A DNA stretch of 35,654 bases from Lachnospiraceae bacterium (GTDB lineage: Bacteria > Bacillota > Clostridia > Lachnospirales > Lachnospiraceae): assembly GCA_030531165.1 (NCBI GenBank), contig JAUNOI010000016.1:1-35654 (forward strand), read 5' to 3'. Position 1 is the stretch's first letter; every line of letters begins with the position of its first letter. The position numbers were made by a program, and so were the translations under genes. Shown here piece by piece: positions 4,102 through 12,792 of this stretch. The notes beneath the pieces are model-generated. The model had not been told where the DNA came from. It saw only the letters and a list, made by a program, of their open reading frames with translations, and did not search any database.

Positions 4102-4725
4102 TCAGGATAAAATTTTTCCATCAATGGAAATCGTGATCACCTGCCACGGCAGAAGCTTGTCACTGTTTTGGATTGCTTTTTTCACTGCCTGTTCTATGCC
4201 GCCGCAGCATGGGACTTCCATACGAACGACAGTGACACTTTTTATTTCATTTTTGCGGATGATTTCTGCTAATTTCTCGCTGTAATCAATCATATCTAAT
4301 TTAGGACATCCGATCAGTGTCACGTGTCCTCGAATAAAATCCTGATGAAATTTTGCATATGCATAGGCGGTACAGTCGGCTGCGATGAGAAGTTCTGCAT
4401 CTTTAAAAAGCGGCGTTTGAATCGGACTTAATTTTATCTGAATTGGCCATTGGTGAAGTTCGGAGACGGATCCGACTTTTTTATTTACGCGAGGGCGCAA
4501 GGCAAGCACTGCAGCCTCATTATATGGCGCAGCCTCTCGTTTTTCGAATGTGATTGCTCCAGTTGGACATGTCGGAAGACAGTCCCCTAATCCGTCACAA
4601 TAATCATCTCTCAATAGCTTTGCTTTTCCTTCGACCATGCCGATGGCTCCTTCATGACATGCTTTTGCGCATGCTCCACATCCGTTGCATTTTTTCTCGT
4701 TAATATGAATTATTTTTCGAATCAT
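4102..4725 (-). CDS. Ferredoxin-like 4Fe-4S binding protein
   Basis: A 207-residue protein with two N-terminal iron-sulfur motifs. The first is complete (C13-x2-C16-x2-C19-x3-C23). The second (C43, C49, C53) has Leu at 46 where the second Cys should be, so one cluster may have only three Cys ligands. The remaining ~150 residues contain IGCPKLD and EVPCCGG, which could bind another cofactor or redox partner. Such proteins occur in clostridia beside Crp/Fnr regulators and hydroxylamine reductase (hcp), but no hcp is present here. It is divergent from the Crp/Fnr gene and probably under its control. Expected cytoplasmic electron transfer; partner unknown. Confidence 0.8.
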   Translation of the reverse strand: MIRKIIHINEKKCNGCGACAKACHEGAIGMVEGKAKLLRDDYCDGLGDCLPTCPTGAITFEKREAAPYNEAAVLALRPRVNKKVGSVSELHQWPIQIKLSPIQTPLFKDAELLIAADCTAYAYAKFHQDFIRGHVTLIGCPKLDMIDYSEKLAEIIRKNEIKSVTVVRMEVPCCGGIEQAVKKAIQNSDKLLPWQVITISIDGKILS

Positions 4726-4789
4726 TGATTATAATACCTTCCTTTCTTGACTTTGCAGATTTATTATAATAAAGTAAATAAAAAGTGTA

Positions 4790-4805
4790 TGTTGTTAAAA
4801 CAACA
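4790..4805. promoter_or_regulatory. Palindromic operator candidate between ferredoxin and Crp/Fnr genes
   Basis: TGTTGTT-AA-AACAACA is a perfect 7+7 palindrome placed between the divergent genes. A TATAAT at 4765-4770, close to palindromic itself, lies 20 bp away and could serve as a -10 for the ferredoxin gene. The palindrome ends just before the RBS of the Crp/Fnr gene. Crp/Fnr dimers bind palindromes of this size, so autoregulation and co-regulation of both genes is the simplest reading. The binding itself is inferred. Confidence 0.5.
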
Positions 4806-4818
4806 AAGAGGTGATAGT

Positions 4819-5505
4819 TTGAATGAAAATCAGTTGAAAAATATGGAAATTTTTAAAAATATAACAGAAGATGAAATAAAGGAGATGAATGCTGCCGGTA
4901 TTTTTCGGGAGCGTACTTATCAAAAGGAAGAAGCTATTTTCCATGCAGGTGATACAACGCGGGAAATCGGTCTTTTGTTAAGCGGAAGCGCACATATTGA
5001 AAATCATGATTTATGGGGAAATAAAACAATTTTAAGCGATATTATGCCGGGTCAGATTTTTGCGGAAGTGTATGCGTTTTTGGGAACAGAGCCGATGCGT
5101 GTAGATGTGACTGCGAAGGAAGAATCTCAGGTCGTGTTTCTTCATGTCGGACATGTGCTGTCTGATTTGGAGAGAGGGGAAAACTGGAAGATCAAGATGC
5201 ACCATAATCTCCTGATGCTTGCGGCACGGAAAAATCTTGTGTTGTCTGACCGTATTTTTCTTACCTCATCAAAAAGTATTCGAGGCAGGGTTTTATCTTA
5301 TCTGTCTATGATGACGATAGAGAAGCAGAGCAAGGAGTTTGATATTCCGTTTAACAGGCAGCAGCTTGCGGATTATCTCAGTGTGAATCGCAGTGCACTT
5401 TCCAATGAACTGGGCAAAATGCAAGAAGAAGGATTGATTACTTTTAGACATAATCATTTTGTTATTAGAGAATCGGATTTTCAATTCGTATATGGAGGAA
5501 ACTGA
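4819..5505 (+). CDS. Crp/Fnr-family transcriptional regulator
   Basis: A 228-residue product with an N-terminal cyclic-nucleotide-binding-like beta-roll (MEIFKNITEDEIKEM, then KEEAIFHAGDTTREIGLLLSGSAHI and DIMPGQIFAE) and a C-terminal winged helix (FNRQQLADYLSVNRSALSNEL, then MQEEGLI). The glycine-rich turns are kept, but no canonical cAMP-contacting RS pair and no N-terminal Fe-S cysteines are seen, so the effector is unknown. AGAGGTG precedes an in-frame TTG at 4819, preferred over the open-frame start at 4747, which would lie across the palindrome. Divergent from the ferredoxin gene; redox, NO or peroxide response is plausible by family. Confidence 0.85.
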   Translation: MNENQLKNMEIFKNITEDEIKEMNAAGIFRERTYQKEEAIFHAGDTTREIGLLLSGSAHIENHDLWGNKTILSDIMPGQIFAEVYAFLGTEPMRVDVTAKEESQVVFLHVGHVLSDLERGENWKIKMHHNLLMLAARKNLVLSDRIFLTSSKSIRGRVLSYLSMMTIEKQSKEFDIPFNRQQLADYLSVNRSALSNELGKMQEEGLITFRHNHFVIRESDFQFVYGGN

Positions 5506-7668: not shown

Positions 7669-7742
7669 AGTAAGAAAACTTCTTCGCATGTGATTTTTGT
7701 TTAATGCTCTGTCACATGTCATAAAGAAGAAGTTTTCTTACT
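7669..7742. terminator. Long bidirectional hairpin between convergent genes
   Basis: Arms AGTAAGAAAACTTCTT (7669-7684) and its exact complement (7727-7742) enclose a second pair, CATGTGA/TCACATG (7687-7693 and 7712-7718). The structure lies between the stop of the YdcF-like gene and the stop of the oadA-type gene on the other strand. There is no long U-run outside the stem, so it may terminate weakly or protect both 3' ends. Confidence 0.6.
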
Positions 7743-7748
7743 TATCTA

Positions 7749-9149
7749 TTACACTGGATACGTTCCGTTTTCTTTATTGCCCAATTCCGGATCAATACCG
7801 TCTTTTTGAGCGGCACGGTATTTAAAGAAGTCGGTTGCAACCTGAGGGAACAATGCGTAAGATAATACGTCTTCTTCCTGTTCGGACCAGGTTTCAACTT
7901 CTTTTTTTAATTTATCTAATTCCGGTTCCAGTAAATCCGCTGGACGGCAGGTGATCGGTTCTTTATCACCGATAACCTTTTGTTTTACTTCTTCATTCAT
8001 CGGTTTCACGGTTGTGCCGTATTTACCGAGTAAAATATCTTTTGTTTCTTTTGTTGCCATTTTGTAGCGTTCACCCATCAATACATTAAATACGGACTGC
8101 GTTCCGACAATCTGAGAAGAAGGAGTAACAAGAGGTGGTTCTCCGAGATCTTTTCTCACGCGAGGAACTTCCTTTAATACCTCGTAGAACTTGTCCTCTG
8201 CTCCCTGTTCTTTTAACTGTGAAGTCAGGTTGGATAACATTCCTCCAGGAACCTGATAAAGCAAGGTTTGAATATCAACTCCCATATTTTTAGGATTCAG
8301 TAATCCTGTTTTTAAGGCTTTATCGCGGATTGGACGAAAATGATCAGCGATTTCTGATAACAATTCCTGATCAAGACCGGTATCATACGGGGTGCCTTTG
8401 AATGTCTCTACCATCACTTCGGTTGCAGGCTGGCTTGTGCCCATTGCAAATGGAGAAATTGCGGTATCGATAATATCAACACCGGCTTCCACGGCTTTCA
8501 AATAAGTCATCGAAGCAACACCGGAAGTATAGTGTGTATGCAGTTCAATTGGAAGATCGACGGTCTCTTTTAATGCACTTACCAGTTCAGAGGCCTGATA
8601 AGGAACCAAAAGACCTGCCATATCCTTGATACAGATAGAATCTGCCCCCATATCTTCAATTCTCTTTGCAATGTCCTTCCAGTAATCTAAAGTATATGCG
8701 TCTCCGAGCGTAAAAGAAAGTGCAACCTGAGCATGTGCTTTTTCCTTATTCGCTGCAGTGACGGCAGTCTGAAGATTACGAAGGTCATTCAGACAGTCAA
8801 AGATACGAATGATATCGATGCCGTTTGCAACAGATTTTTGTACGAAGTATTCTACTACATCGTCTGCATATGGACGATATCCAAGAATATTTTGTCCACG
8901 GAACAACATCTGTAATTTTGTATTTTTAAAACCATCGCGAAATTTACGAAGGCGTTCCCACGGATCTTCTTTTAAGAAGCGGAGACATGCATCAAAAGTT
9001 GCACCGCCCCAGCATTCTACGGCATGATAGCCAACCTGATCCATTTTATCGATGATCGGAAGCATTTCTTCGGTAGACATACGAGTAGCAATCAAAGACT
9101 GCTGCGCATCACGAAGAATGGTTTCTGTAATTTTAATTGGTTTTCCCAT
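7749..9149 (-). CDS. oadA: Oxaloacetate decarboxylase alpha-type carboxyltransferase (no biotin domain)
   Basis: 466 residues of the pyruvate/oxaloacetate carboxyltransferase family (transcarboxylase 5S, OadA). The TIM barrel opens with TETILRDAQQSL, where D14 is the usual metal ligand. The barrel Lys lies in CIKDMAG (about K174) and the metal-binding histidines in ELHTHYTSG (about 203-205). The chain stops after the PYC-OADA helical domain; the biotin domain found at the end of many OadA proteins is missing and is supplied by the separate gene at 10310-10678. It should move a carboxyl group between oxaloacetate/pyruvate and carboxybiotin. Last gene of the minus-strand operon. Confidence 0.9.
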   Translation of the reverse strand: MGKPIKITETILRDAQQSLIATRMSTEEMLPIIDKMDQVGYHAVECWGGATFDACLRFLKEDPWERLRKFRDGFKNTKLQMLFRGQNILGYRPYADDVVEYFVQKSVANGIDIIRIFDCLNDLRNLQTAVTAANKEKAHAQVALSFTLGDAYTLDYWKDIAKRIEDMGADSICIKDMAGLLVPYQASELVSALKETVDLPIELHTHYTSGVASMTYLKAVEAGVDIIDTAISPFAMGTSQPATEVMVETFKGTPYDTGLDQELLSEIADHFRPIRDKALKTGLLNPKNMGVDIQTLLYQVPGGMLSNLTSQLKEQGAEDKFYEVLKEVPRVRKDLGEPPLVTPSSQIVGTQSVFNVLMGERYKMATKETKDILLGKYGTTVKPMNEEVKQKVIGDKEPITCRPADLLEPELDKLKKEVETWSEQEEDVLSYALFPQVATDFFKYRAAQKDGIDPELGNKENGTYPV

Positions 9150-9163
9150 AAATATATTTCCTC

Positions 9164-10291
9164 CTAATTAATTCCAAATACAGCCATAAATACGCCGGCA
9201 GCAACCGCTGTTCCGATAACACCGGCTACATTCGGTCCCATCGCATGCATGAGCAGGAAGTTCGTAGGATCAGCTTCTGCACCTACTTTCTGGGATACAC
9301 GGGCCGCCATTGGAACGGCAGATACACCTGCGGATCCAATTAATGGATTTACTTTACCGCCGGTTACTTTACACATGAGCTTTCCAAACAAAACGCCAGA
9401 AGCAGTACCGAATGCAAAAGCGATCAAACCTAATACAACGATCTTGATCGTTGTAAAATTTAAAAAAGCTTCAGCGCTTGTTGTTGCACCTACACTGGTT
9501 CCGAGCAGGATGACAACGATATACATTAAGGCATTGGAAGCAGTTTCTGTCAACTGACGAACAACGCCGGATTCTTTAAATAAGTTTCCTAACATTAACA
9601 TACCAACCAGAGGAGCAGTTGTAGGAAGAAGCAGGCATACAACGACTGTAACAATGACCGGGAACATGATGCGTTCGATCTTTGATACAGGACGAAGCTG
9701 TTCCATTTTGATCTGACGTTCTTCTTCGGTTGTCAGAAGACGCATGATCGGTGGTTGGATGATCGGTACGAGCGACATATAAGAATATGCGGCTACGGCA
9801 ATTGGTCCCATTAATTGTGTCTGGTGCAGCTTACCTGCAAGGAAAATCGAAGTAGGACCGTCAGCGCCACCGATAATCGAGATGGCAGCAGCAGCGGCAT
9901 TATCGAATCCGAGCAGCATTGCTCCAATATACGCAGCAAAGATACCGAACTGGGCAGCAGCACCGAGAAGAAAACTCTGCGGATTTGCAATCAGGGGACC
10001 GAAATCTGTCATTGCACCAACCCCGAGGAAAATCAGGGACGGAAGAATGCTCCATTCATCTAATAAAAAGAAGTAGTGAAGAAGCCCTCCTTCAGCCATG
10101 ATATCCGGATAAATATTTACTAACAGCATACCAAAAGAAATAGGAACTAACAGTAATGGCTCATATTCCTTTTTGATAGCCAGATAAAGGAAAACGCAGG
10201 CTACACAGATCATCGCATAGTTTCCGACTGTTAAATTAAAAAATGCGGTCTGGTGTATGAGATTTCCTAAAACTTCTATAATATAACTCAT
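9164..10291 (-). CDS. oadB: Na+-translocating decarboxylase beta subunit
   Basis: 375 residues, almost entirely hydrophobic, with about ten membrane segments. It matches the beta subunits of oxaloacetate, methylmalonyl-CoA and glutaconyl-CoA decarboxylases: [17 protein letters not shown] near residues 88-104 and [15 protein letters not shown] near 141-155, regions carrying the conserved Asp residues linked to Na+ transport. It should decarboxylate carboxybiotin and use the energy to export sodium. It begins 18 bp after the biotin-carrier gene and ends 14 bp before the oadA-type gene, so co-translation in one complex is likely. The beta sequence does not reveal which decarboxylase type it serves. 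Confidence 0.92.
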
Positions 10292-10309
10292 CGCAGTACC
10301 TCCCGCAGT

Positions 10310-10678
10310 TTAACTTAAAGTAGCGAGAACATCACCGGATTCTACCATATCTCCAACAGCTACATCAATACTTGCGATTGTTCCATCTTCCGGAGCAGTA
10401 ACTCCGATTTCCATCTTCATTGCTTCAATAATAATAACCGGATCGCCTTTCTTTACGGTCTGGCCGACAGAAGTAGGGATATTGAAAACTTTTCCGGCAG
10501 CCCCTGTTCTGACATCGATGCTTCCGGCGGCAGGAGCTGCCGGTTTTGCTGCTGGTGCAGCAGGAGCGGAAGGGGTTGTCGGGGCAGCAACAGGAGCAGT
10601 TGAAGCAGCACCTGTTTTTTCCTCTACGGTAACATCATATGAGGTACCGTTTACCGTAATTGTATATTGTTTTATCAT
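10310..10678 (-). CDS. Biotin carrier protein (gamma/1.3S-type subunit)
   Basis: 122 residues: a short N-terminal beta segment (MIKQYTITVNGTSYDV), a flexible Ala/Pro-rich linker (about residues 24-52), and a C-terminal biotinyl domain with the biotin-accepting Lys in EAMKMEIG (K88). This layout matches MmdC/GcdC and the 1.3S subunit of transcarboxylase. Biotin on K88 would shuttle carboxyl groups between the carboxyltransferases and the membrane beta subunit. It is the only biotin domain in the operon, so both carboxyltransferases must share it if all five products form one complex. Confidence 0.93.
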   Translation of the reverse strand: MIKQYTITVNGTSYDVTVEEKTGAASTAPVAAPTTPSAPAAPAAKPAAPAAGSIDVRTGAAGKVFNIPTSVGQTVKKGDPVIIIEAMKMEIGVTAPEDGTIASIDVAVGDMVESGDVLATLS

Positions 10679-10698
10679 AATTGTAATCCTCCTATAAT

Positions 10699-11067
10699 TT
10701 AAATGGTTTTATTCCAGTGATTCGCAGCTGAACGGCGAATGGAACGAACAACAAAAGCATCTTCCGGAACACCTGTTGAGGCAGCGATTGCGGCAGTGAT
10801 TACCGCGATTAATTCCAGATCATCTTCAGGATGATCTGAAGCTGCAGGCTGAACGGCAGATATCGGAGTCGTTGCGGGAGCCGATTTGCTTGTTTTTTGT
10901 TTTGGTTCCTTCTTATTAAATGATTCCAGAATTTTAGGAATATATGCCAGCAGGGAAATCAGAAGGCTGATAAAAATTAACACAGCAAATACTGTTCCCA
11001 TGCCGAGTACGGTGTTCAACAAAGCGGTTTTAAAGACTTCTCCGATTGATAATAATGGAAAATACAT
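10699..11067 (-). CDS. OadG-family small membrane subunit of Na+-pump decarboxylase
   Basis: 122 residues with one N-terminal membrane helix (about residues 12-42, including TVLGMGTVFAVLIFISLLIS), a Lys/Ala/Pro/Thr-rich linker and a C-terminal segment (LIAVITAAIAASTG, then FVVRSIRR) typical of the OadG/MmdD delta-gamma family. In known complexes this subunit anchors the carboxyltransferase to the membrane beta subunit and aids assembly. The ending SAANHWNK resembles related clostridial proteins. It sits 15 bp downstream of the acyl-CoA carboxyltransferase-like gene. The start is weakly supported (AAGGCGG 9 bases upstream). Confidence 0.85.
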   Translation of the reverse strand: MYFPLLSIGEVFKTALLNTVLGMGTVFAVLIFISLLISLLAYIPKILESFNKKEPKQKTSKSAPATTPISAVQPAASDHPEDDLELIAVITAAIAASTGVPEDAFVVRSIRRSAANHWNKTI

Positions 11068-11082
11068 GTTATCGCCGCCTTT

Positions 11083-12507
11083 CTATATGCTCAGATGCTT
11101 TTTGTATTTTACAGATTCCTGCTTGGTTGCGAGCATTTCAAAAGCACTGATCAGATATTTTCGTGTGTCCTGAGGGCGGATGATCATATCCACATAGCCG
11201 CGTGATGCAGCAGATGCAGCACTGTTATACAAATGATCATATTCCACAGCTTTTTGGCGAATGAAAGAAGCACTCTCACCCTCGTGTAAAATCTTCACAG
11301 CATGAGTACCATCCATGGAACCGATCGTTGCACTGTCAAAAGCATATACAAGATCAATTCCTAATGATTTGCTGCCCATAATGGTTCCTGCAGAGCCCAT
11401 TGCGCATTCGGTGATCAGCGTTACCTTCGGTATGGTTGCAGATGCATATGCAGATGCAAGTGCAGCGCATGCGGCCGGTGTATGAATCTCCGATTCAAAT
11501 GAGCTTTCAAATCCGGTCACATTCGATAAGGTAAGAACCGGTATATGGAAAGCATCGCAGAATTTAATGAAAGAAGCGGCTTTATTAGCTCCGTCTGCAG
11601 TTAATACAGCCGGGAATGTTTCCTCGCTATCCGTTACATTCTGTCGGTTTGCTACGCATCCGATCGTCATACCGTCCAGTTTCAAGAAACCGGTTACCAT
11701 TTCTCTGGCAGTCTCTTTTTTAGTTTCGATAAAATCATAGTTATCAGCAATGATAGAAAGGACAAGTGCAGCGTCAGAAGATGCATTCTCGATTCCTTCA
11801 CATATACGGTTAAGATCGTCAGCACATGGCTCTTGCATGATCGAAAAACGGTTATTAGCTGGAAGGATTCCGATAAAGCGTCTGACTTCTGCATAGATTT
11901 CATCTTCGGTGCCGCAAAAATCAATGCTTTGTGTATATTTTGATTTCCATTCAGCGGAAGCGGTATCACAAGTTTCTTTTGTATTTGCCGGAATTGTATT
12001 TGGAGACTGTAAAAACAGATGTCCTTTTTTCTCCTCCACAAAAGTAAAATCAGACAATGCCGGAATTACGGATACTCCACCTCCGCAGTCGCCCATAACG
12101 AGGGTGATCTGTGGAATGACGCCGGAAGCAAAAGCCTGTTTTTGGTAGATCGTACCGAGACCATTCAGCGCATCGGTGGATTCATGTAATCGTAAACCGG
12201 AACAATCGATGATACCGATGATTGGGGCTCCCATCTTCAGAGCCATGTTATAAAGATTCGTGATTTTTCTGCTATGCATTTCTCCAATTGCTCCGCCCAA
12301 TACGGAAGCATCCTGACTGTAAATATAAACAAGCGCATCGTTGATTAATCCGTAGCCTGTTAATACTCCGTCGGCAGGAGTTTCTTCTTCATATAGATGA
12401 AAATCAGTAGAACGTGCAGTGATGCCCGCACCGATTTCTACAAAACTATTCGCATCTAATAGAGAATGAACTCTTGTCAAAGCAGAATTGCTTGATGAAT
12501 TTTTCAT
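11083..12507 (-). CDS. Acyl-CoA carboxyltransferase-like subunit (MmdA/12S type), divergent
   Basis: 474 residues with two crotonase-like halves as in methylmalonyl-CoA decarboxylase alpha, propionyl-CoA carboxylase beta and transcarboxylase 12S. Half one has DGVLTGYGLI, LGGAIGEMHSRKI and SGVIPQITLVMGDCGGG; half two has GFLKLDGMTIGCVANRQ, CDAFHIPVLTL and AMGSAGTIMGSKSLGIDLVYA. Several usual positions differ: GPCAGGA is GDCGGG, the PGF-type loop is NVTGFESS, and GGAY is GSAG. It is also about 35-40 residues shorter than typical MmdA. The acyl-CoA substrate is therefore uncertain (malonyl-, methylmalonyl- or another CoA ester). First gene of the operon, with RBS GGAGG upstream. Confidence 0.8.
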   Translation of the reverse strand: MKNSSSNSALTRVHSLLDANSFVEIGAGITARSTDFHLYEEETPADGVLTGYGLINDALVYIYSQDASVLGGAIGEMHSRKITNLYNMALKMGAPIIGIIDCSGLRLHESTDALNGLGTIYQKQAFASGVIPQITLVMGDCGGGVSVIPALSDFTFVEEKKGHLFLQSPNTIPANTKETCDTASAEWKSKYTQSIDFCGTEDEIYAEVRRFIGILPANNRFSIMQEPCADDLNRICEGIENASSDAALVLSIIADNYDFIETKKETAREMVTGFLKLDGMTIGCVANRQNVTDSEETFPAVLTADGANKAASFIKFCDAFHIPVLTLSNVTGFESSFESEIHTPAACAALASAYASATIPKVTLITECAMGSAGTIMGSKSLGIDLVYAFDSATIGSMDGTHAVKILHEGESASFIRQKAVEYDHLYNSAASAASRGYVDMIIRPQDTRKYLISAFEMLATKQESVKYKKHLSI

Positions 12508-12765: not shown

Positions 12766-12792
12766 TTAGCACTCAAATCGCACGAGTGCTAA
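12766..12792. promoter_or_regulatory. CIRCE operator (HrcA binding site)
   Basis: TTAGCACTC-N9-GAGTGCTAA is present with both arms perfect. CIRCE is the established operator of HrcA, which represses dnaK and groE operons until heat stress. It lies between the promoter and hrcA, which begins at 12819, so it is also transcribed and can form a leader hairpin. Confidence 0.97.

Follow-up and report, generated by a model that had tools for sequence, protein, structure and literature searches.

Why should an operon for a sodium pump encode two different carboxyltransferases and a single biotin carrier? The question is raised by a stretch of 35,654 nucleotides from a Lachnospiraceae bacterium (assembly GCA_030531165.1, contig JAUNOI010000016.1), which is called the window below. 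Its list of open reading frames (ORFs) holds five on the minus strand, from position 12507 to 7749, in the order 12S-OadG-biotin carrier-OadB-5S:

11083..12507, minus strand: 12S-like acyl-CoA carboxyltransferase, the first gene of the operon (474 amino acids; PF01039, E 7.3e-86)
10699..11067, minus strand: OadG-type small membrane subunit (122 amino acids; PF04277, E 2.5e-24)
10310..10678, minus strand: free biotin carrier, similar to 1.3S and MmdC (122 amino acids; PF00364, E 1.6e-18)
9164..10291, minus strand: OadB, the Na+-translocating carboxybiotin decarboxylase (375 amino acids; PF03977, E 1.2e-155)
7749..9149, minus strand: 5S-like oxaloacetate/pyruvate carboxyltransferase (466 amino acids; PF00682 and PF02436)

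The gaps between these genes are 15, 20, 18 and 14 bases along the operon, and the ORF list shows no biotin carboxylase gene within it. With a probability that we put at roughly 60%, the operon encodes a sodium-coupled carboxyl hub. We infer one complex, physical or functional, and with it a substrate for 12S, a direction of flux and a coupling to Na+. The single biotin carrier would be charged and discharged by three partners. Through 5S, the carboxyl group would be exchanged between oxaloacetate and pyruvate; through 12S, between the members of an acyl-CoA pair, most likely malonyl-CoA and acetyl-CoA; and through OadB, carboxybiotin would be interconverted with CO2 in a reaction coupled to Na+ movement. 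OadG would hold the assembly at the membrane. Three modes of operation can be envisaged. In the first, the carboxyl group would pass between oxaloacetate and an acyl-CoA without ATP; in the second, surplus carboxyl would be released as CO2 and Na+ exported; in the third, OadB would be reversed and the Na+ gradient spent on charging biotin.

The first step towards an answer is the nature of the five proteins. Profile matches confirm the architecture claimed in the initial annotation, that is, two carboxyltransferases, one free carrier, OadG and OadB, and this architecture is widespread in the family. Among solved structures, propionyl-CoA carboxylase beta chains rank best for 12S (3n6r, E 9.8e-96), which also matches the 12S subunit of Propionibacterium freudenreichii (1on3, E 3.1e-74). 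On the mmdA model TIGR01117 it scores 361.6 bits, below the cut-off of 998.8. The 5S protein passes the cut-off of PRK12331, "oxaloacetate decarboxylase subunit alpha" (766.3 versus 718 bits), and lies under that of PRK12330, the equivalog model for the transcarboxylase 5S subunit (577 versus 827 bits). Its solved relatives are 5ks8 (pyruvate carboxylase subunit beta), 2nx9 (oxaloacetate decarboxylase alpha) and 1rqb (transcarboxylase 5S). No biotin domain was matched in it by the profile search, and the protein ends after PYC_OADA. The biotinyl lysine of the carrier is K88, within EAMKME, and OadG, judged by eye, has a single membrane helix followed by a cytoplasmic tail. OadB aligns with the OadB of 6iva (E 4.6e-114), D144, S324 and N354 of the window protein corresponding to Asp203, Ser382 and Asn412. 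The latter are described as Na+-site residues (PMC7274780).

The distribution of the operon was surveyed in 250 genomes from 249 genera, the family being taken as Lachnospiraceae. Uncurated tallies gave 12S in 230/250 genomes and OadB in 232/250. After curation by hand, 12S is present in 223/250, and each of these 223 genomes has OadB somewhere (223/223); OadB without an operon-type 12S occurs in 11 genomes, and neither in 16. In this curation, 12S was scored absent in 20 matchless genomes and in seven with weak or other carboxyltransferase matches only (G097, G145, G190, G091, G103, G208 and G224), and present where it is broken or partial (G056, G058, G092, G139 and G192). OadB was scored absent in 15 matchless genomes and in G045 (E 5.6e-5). 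Three apparent cases of 12S without OadB (G024, G120 and G139) were rejected and scored as OadB-positive, because the operon runs off the contig ends; in G139, 12S is also split into two pieces on opposite strands, and in G024, 5S was likewise not found.

The gene order recurs as well. One set of 38 loci, from 37 genomes of the family, was taken from the 12S matches listed and hence lacks the weakest matches; among the matches listed, tblastn located the complete ordered set at 35 of the 38. At a further locus (L047), OadG was missed by tblastn and read by eye, which brings the complete operons to 36/38; L061 reaches the contig end ahead of 5S, and L075 is truly without OadB. Such a recurrence in 35/38 loci, among the matches listed, shows that the order is not due to chance. 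A second set comes from genomes in which biotin carboxylase was not detected (L191-L224, L226-L228); it contains the full ordered set in 36 of 37 cases, L226 ending ahead of 5S. The conserved five-gene order anticipated by the initial annotation was thus found in both sets. Among named relatives that share the operon, Candidatus Fimousia stercorigallinarum and Anaerostipes sp. 992a are the nearest; both are listed as Lachnospiraceae, and the assignment of the family follows from this. The same five genes are found in an Oscillospiraceae metagenome-assembled genome (MAG; L162), with 12S at 32% identity.

Are the five proteins conserved in a way that befits active enzymes? Conservation was assessed in 75 complete operons of 88 loci, the window included; rows lacking any of the five genes were excluded, and so were L162, L106 and L108. 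Mean pairwise identity is 0.83 for OadB, 0.79 for 5S, 0.64 for the carrier, 0.60 for 12S and 0.35 for OadG. Invariant in 75/75 operons are K88 of the carrier, the Na+-site residues D144, S324 and N354 of OadB, and D14, K175, H204 and H206 of 5S, the last four presumably having metal and carbamyl-lysine roles. In 12S, G142, G143 and G371 are found in 75/75 operons and A373 in 72/75; we take G142/G143 and G371/A373 to be its two glycine pockets, and these are among the 92 of 474 positions that are at least 97% conserved. The acyl-CoA specificity position of 12S is V, L, I or T in 67/75 operons. We take this position to decide between use of propionyl-CoA (Asp) and a broader use (Ile).

In OadG, G22, V26, F27 and several tail residues are kept in at least 97% of the 75 operons; a search with a short OadG motif was too strict (59/79 operons), and column conservation was used in its place. 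Of the 79 operons that have OadB and in which OadG was found, 65 have an OadG of at least 200 amino acids; the window protein belongs to the short form. Short OadGs of 119-125 amino acids are those of the window, G172, Fimousia and Anaerostipes sp. 992a. At their N-terminus, the long ones that were read (L041 and other loci) mostly have a lipoprotein-like signal and one additional domain, and the single long OadG that was scanned matches DUF3887 (E 2.1e-8).

Natural variants that have lost OadB from the operon provide the strongest indication that 12S and 5S cooperate through the carrier. In G028 (L075) and in a Herbinix MAG (L115), 12S, OadG, carrier and 5S are contiguous and OadB is gone. 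These two genomes sit apart on the 5S+OadB tree (a quick build, with support from the SH-like approximate likelihood ratio test, SH-aLRT, only), and their OadGs, as judged by eye, both lack the V26-F27 pair. An assembly fault is unlikely, since the two are separate on the tree, the genes are contiguous and both OadGs have lost the pair; such a loss would be expected if the OadG helix no longer packs on OadB. There are three OadB matches in total in G028. One of them, on another contig, adjoins a distant carboxyltransferase stretch and a further carrier, so that the pump and the transcarboxylase-like set are separate in this genome. These two operons, along with the genomes that have a single strong carrier match (below), support the view of the initial annotation that the parts of a transcarboxylase are joined here to a Na+ pump. 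A carrier and OadB with a distant 12S-like stretch, additional to the five-gene operon, were seen at L190 (G028; 29% identity) and L225 (G066; 22% identity); these are possibly separate glutaconyl-CoA decarboxylase operons.

The second line of evidence comes from genomes in which the usual means of charging biotin was not detected. The accC model, which also detects the biotin-carboxylase domain of pyruvate carboxylase, matches 166/250 genomes. In the better subset of 216 genomes (completeness of 90% or more, contamination of 5% or less) it matches 146; with this model at E 1e-20, biotin carboxylase was not detected in 84/250 genomes, or in 70 of the 216 better ones. For accA there are matches in 189/250 genomes, for fabD in 203/250 and for full-length pyruvate carboxylase, over its cut-off, in 22/250. 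Absence of accA, fabD and accC was taken as the complement of presence lists copied by hand (E 1e-20), whose counts of 189, 203 and 166 match the tallies. The 84 biotin-carboxylase-negative genomes include 83 with OadB, 74 with 12S and 44 with fabD, 42 of these 44 having 12S. The association between OadB and biotin carboxylase has p 0.014 overall and 0.043 within FabD-positive genomes, kinship being ignored. On the 5S+OadB tree (81 labelled rows), biotin-carboxylase status changes at least 10 times on starred branches, gains and losses merged; therefore, the lack is not the property of one odd clade. In the open-access literature, mostly by title and abstract and with subscription papers largely outside it, no account of a lack of biotin carboxylase in Lachnospiraceae was recognised.

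How is biotin charged in such cells, and for which enzymes? Carriers were searched for in 65 genomes, among them all 44 that are FabD-positive and biotin-carboxylase-negative. In 38 of the 42 with 12S there is a single carrier match at E 1e-10 or below, and it is located in the operon; the remaining four (G028, G066, G116 and G206) have a second strong match, and several of the genomes searched also show weak carrier matches, down to E 1e-3. Among 13 fab loci read from biotin-carboxylase-negative genomes, 12 have FabD, FabG, FabF and FabZ together without AccB/AccC, the exception being G028, with FabD but not the other three. A fused AccDA is retained in three of these 12 loci (G066, L188; G114, L189; G123, L229), and nine genomes without accA and without biotin carboxylase have FabD-G-F-Z clusters. 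As the operon carrier is the sole strong one, AccDA or 12S would be fed by it only, barring an unknown carboxylase or assembly gaps. On this reading of the genomes, biotin-dependent malonyl-CoA synthesis in those 38 must draw on the operon carrier, which would be charged from oxaloacetate or by a reversed OadB. Acetyl-CoA is the favoured candidate for the 12S substrate. The title of Dimroth and Hilpert 1984, as given in the reference list of PMC7274780, has both pump types reversed, with carboxylation of pyruvate and acetyl-CoA.

Several observations weigh against the hub as proposed. The 44 FabD-positive, biotin-carboxylase-negative genomes include 30 that retain accA; the gene would be redundant there if 12S alone made malonyl-CoA. 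Furthermore, no association was seen between 12S and the absence of biotin carboxylase (p 0.67 overall, 0.37 within FabD-positive genomes) or of accA (p 0.15, 250 genomes). Replacement of acetyl-CoA carboxylase (ACC) as a simple reason for 12S was considered and rejected on the p values of 0.15 (accA) and 0.67 (biotin carboxylase). In 32 genomes, 12S is present and both fabD and biotin carboxylase are absent. Given these genomes, the retained accA and the missing statistical tie, 12S may act on a different substrate or on more than one. G091 and G208 are FabD-positive, have no detected biotin carboxylase and lack an operon-type 12S, so that another route exists at least in these two. In G048, G160 and G197, the operon reads OadG-carrier-OadB-5S without 12S; they form a single three-genus clade on the 5S+OadB tree, which keeps the pump without the acyl-CoA enzyme. 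The 12S protein is also more divergent than 5S and OadB (0.60 versus 0.79 and 0.83). Finally, because a second strong carrier match exists in the Herbinix genome, it is not a single-carrier case.

The window's own genome belongs among these points too. Its assembly is 85.5% complete and consists of 149 contigs, the window being contig 107. Besides the operon carrier it has two biotin-domain matches: the first belongs to a cluster on contig 54 that also comprises accDA, accC and fab genes (some of the names being assigned from sequence), and the second, on contig 94, is terminal in a full-length pyruvate carboxylase. The matches of this genome to accC and accA are both on contig 54. As the bacterium has an ACC cluster and a pyruvate carboxylase of its own, it does not need the hub for malonyl-CoA or oxaloacetate; to judge by the number of carriers, this holds for other genomes too, such as that of Herbinix. 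The possibility, raised in the initial annotation, that one of the carboxyltransferases works with a biotin protein elsewhere is hard to uphold in 38 of 42 relatives, but the window genome itself has the two further biotin-domain matches.

Which other explanations have to be considered? It is possible, and may tentatively be entertained, that the operon is a dedicated oxaloacetate:acetyl-CoA transcarboxylase for malonyl-CoA with OadB as a mere overflow valve, a narrower form of the hub that overlaps with it. The FabD-G-F-Z clusters in nine genomes without accA and biotin carboxylase are in line with this, and so is the 12S specificity position, with V, L, I or T in 67/75 operons and not the Asp that we associate with propionyl-CoA enzymes. 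The retention of accA in 30/44 genomes, the occurrence of 12S in 32 genomes without FabD and biotin carboxylase and the ACC cluster of the window genome speak against such a dedication. In Clostridium thermocellum, Clo1313_1523-1526 is described as a putative transcarboxylase and likewise assigned to malonyl-CoA, because the standard ACC is missing there (PMC5414155).

A more far-reaching proposal, which we regard as doubtful, is that in many Lachnospiraceae the reversed pump fully replaces ATP-dependent biotin carboxylase. The Na+ gradient would then charge the sole carrier via OadB, 5S would make oxaloacetate out of pyruvate, and 12S would supply fatty-acid synthesis with malonyl-CoA, together with AccDA where this is kept without AccB/AccC. 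Pyruvate carboxylase and ACC would be dispensable under this proposal, which would fit the presence of full-length pyruvate carboxylase in 12 of 234 OadB-positive genomes versus 10 of the 16 that lack OadB (Fisher p 1.8e-8, a raw value that ignores shared ancestry). Pyruvate carboxylase and the operon as compensating alternatives did not find confirmation in independent pairs on an AccC tree, a comparison of little power: there are six pairs on starred branches, and on average pyruvate carboxylase goes the same way in 0.9 of them and the opposite way in 1.5. The sample of this tree is biased; its 40 genomes comprise 12/12 of the OadB-positive ones with pyruvate carboxylase, 17/222 of the OadB-positive ones without it and 11/16 of the OadB-negative ones, and the row of G145 is in a wrong reading frame and has a very long branch.

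The operon could also be a sodium pump with two inputs. Here 5S and 12S would each feed the carrier, OadB would always decarboxylate and export Na+, the acyl-CoA would be malonyl- or methylmalonyl-CoA, and transfer between the substrates would not be physiological. Classical pumps are described as operating in this manner (PMC7274780, PMC7145394), and OadB is both the best-conserved protein (0.83) and present in all 223 curated genomes with 12S. Nevertheless, we consider this explanation unlikely: OadB has been lost from the operon in two distant lineages that kept both carboxyltransferases and the carrier, and genomes that have fab clusters, but in which biotin carboxylase was not detected, have a demand for carboxybiotin rather than for its removal. 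Methylmalonyl-CoA, suggested as a substrate in the initial annotation, is not supported, since methylmalonyl-CoA mutase (PF01642) was not found in the window genome (85.5% complete); for the same reason, a methylmalonyl-CoA transcarboxylase of the succinate-propionate pathway was rejected. That the carboxyltransferases are functionally unconnected neighbours, or 12S a catalytically dead scaffold, is highly improbable, for although 12S is divergent and lost in one clade, the gaps in the window measure only 14-20 bases, the order is conserved in the loci read, 92/474 positions of 12S including the glycine pockets are at least 97% conserved, and 38/42 genomes have no further strong carrier match.

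The surroundings of the five genes bear on their joint expression. To judge from its flanks, the operon is probably a single transcription unit, bounded by a convergent gene downstream, a repeat past 5S and a divergent gene, presumably hrcA, upstream. The signals are the following:

7669..7742, minus strand: inverted repeat, read by eye; likely transcription terminator between convergent genes
12702-12675, minus strand: promoter-like site upstream of the operon, TTGTCC-16-TATAAT, from a consensus scan
12594-12566, minus strand: promoter-like site upstream of the operon, TTGAAT-17-TAAAAT, from a consensus scan

The repeat at 7669..7742 has perfect 17-base arms, AGTAAGAAAACTTCTTC and GAAGAAGTTTTCTTACT, and lies directly past the stop codon of 5S; it is absent from the sites of the hairpin scan, which takes loops of 3-8 bases only. 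The promoter scan is weak, with 15 sites in the region versus 12.5 expected. GGAGG precedes the ATG of 12S, as read from the sequence. Another inverted repeat, TTAGCACTC-N9-GAGTGCTAA at 12766-12792, about 260 bases from the divergent start codon of 12S, resembles what we take to be CIRCE. As it falls inside the start of the divergent ORF, the true start of the presumed hrcA is probably further downstream. A ferredoxin-like gene and a divergent regulator of the Crp/Fnr family, both from profile matches, are located near the operon at 4102-5505. When the window was scanned against Rfam with gathering thresholds, no match was obtained.

If the hub is real, a large family of anaerobes would link oxaloacetate, malonyl-CoA and the sodium gradient via one and the same biotin protein; in about one third of the sample (84/250 genomes), this would happen without a detected ATP-dependent biotin carboxylase. 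The way in which anaplerosis and the synthesis of fatty acids are modelled in these organisms would change, and genes now labelled oxaloacetate decarboxylase or methylmalonyl-CoA decarboxylase could be read with more insight. Furthermore, pump reversal, known from purified enzymes, would become testable in living cells.

How does the operon compare with what has been described elsewhere? The transcarboxylase idea has precedents in the clusters of C. thermocellum (PMC5414155) and of isolate BL-4 (CLOSBL4_v1_1895-1897; PMC7764203); a further putative transcarboxylase or carboxyltransferase cluster is that of Geobacter bemidjiensis (Gbem_0334-0337; PMC2996986), and a table of fermenters labels such a cluster oxaloacetate decarboxylase (PMC3561251). 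As in the window, genes for 12S, 5S and/or the carrier stand together in the clusters of C. thermocellum (Clo1313_1523-1526; Cthe_0699-0701), BL-4 and G. bemidjiensis. Compared by description only, the published accounts of these clusters, so far as they were available, give no OadB in one operon with both carboxyltransferases, and the open-access literature, mostly by title and abstract and with subscription papers largely outside it, yielded no recognised account of both enzymes and OadB on one carrier. The oxaloacetate decarboxylase of Halomonas elongata offers a precedent for pump reversal: it has been proposed as an anaplerotic, Na+-driven carboxylase, and deletion mutants point the same way (PMC7545133). 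This halophile has a membrane oxaloacetate decarboxylase, and in the available part of that report no acyl-CoA arm is described.

Among the classical systems, the methylmalonyl-CoA:pyruvate transcarboxylase of Propionibacterium (EC 2.1.3.1) has the same three soluble parts, 12S, 5S and 1.3S, in a cluster that is likewise without biotin carboxylase. The window operon adds OadB and OadG to these; moreover, its 5S is under the cut-off for the 5S subunit (577/827 bits), and no mutase was found in the genome. With the Na+-translocating oxaloacetate decarboxylase OadABG it shares an OadB with the Na+-site residues, OadG and a carboxyltransferase of the oxaloacetate type. It differs from that enzyme in that the carrier is a separate protein of 122 amino acids instead of the C-terminal domain of the alpha subunit, and in having a second, acyl-CoA carboxyltransferase. 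The Na+ decarboxylases MmdABCD and GcdABCD have in common with it an acyl-CoA carboxyltransferase, a small subunit, a free carrier and the beta subunit, whereas the window operon has a 12S that is far under the mmdA cut-off and an added 5S enzyme. In contrast to acetyl-CoA carboxylase, the operon lacks a biotin carboxylase subunit. What sets it apart from the Na+-translocating biotin decarboxylases in general is the pair of carboxyltransferases, in place of a single one that determines the substrate.

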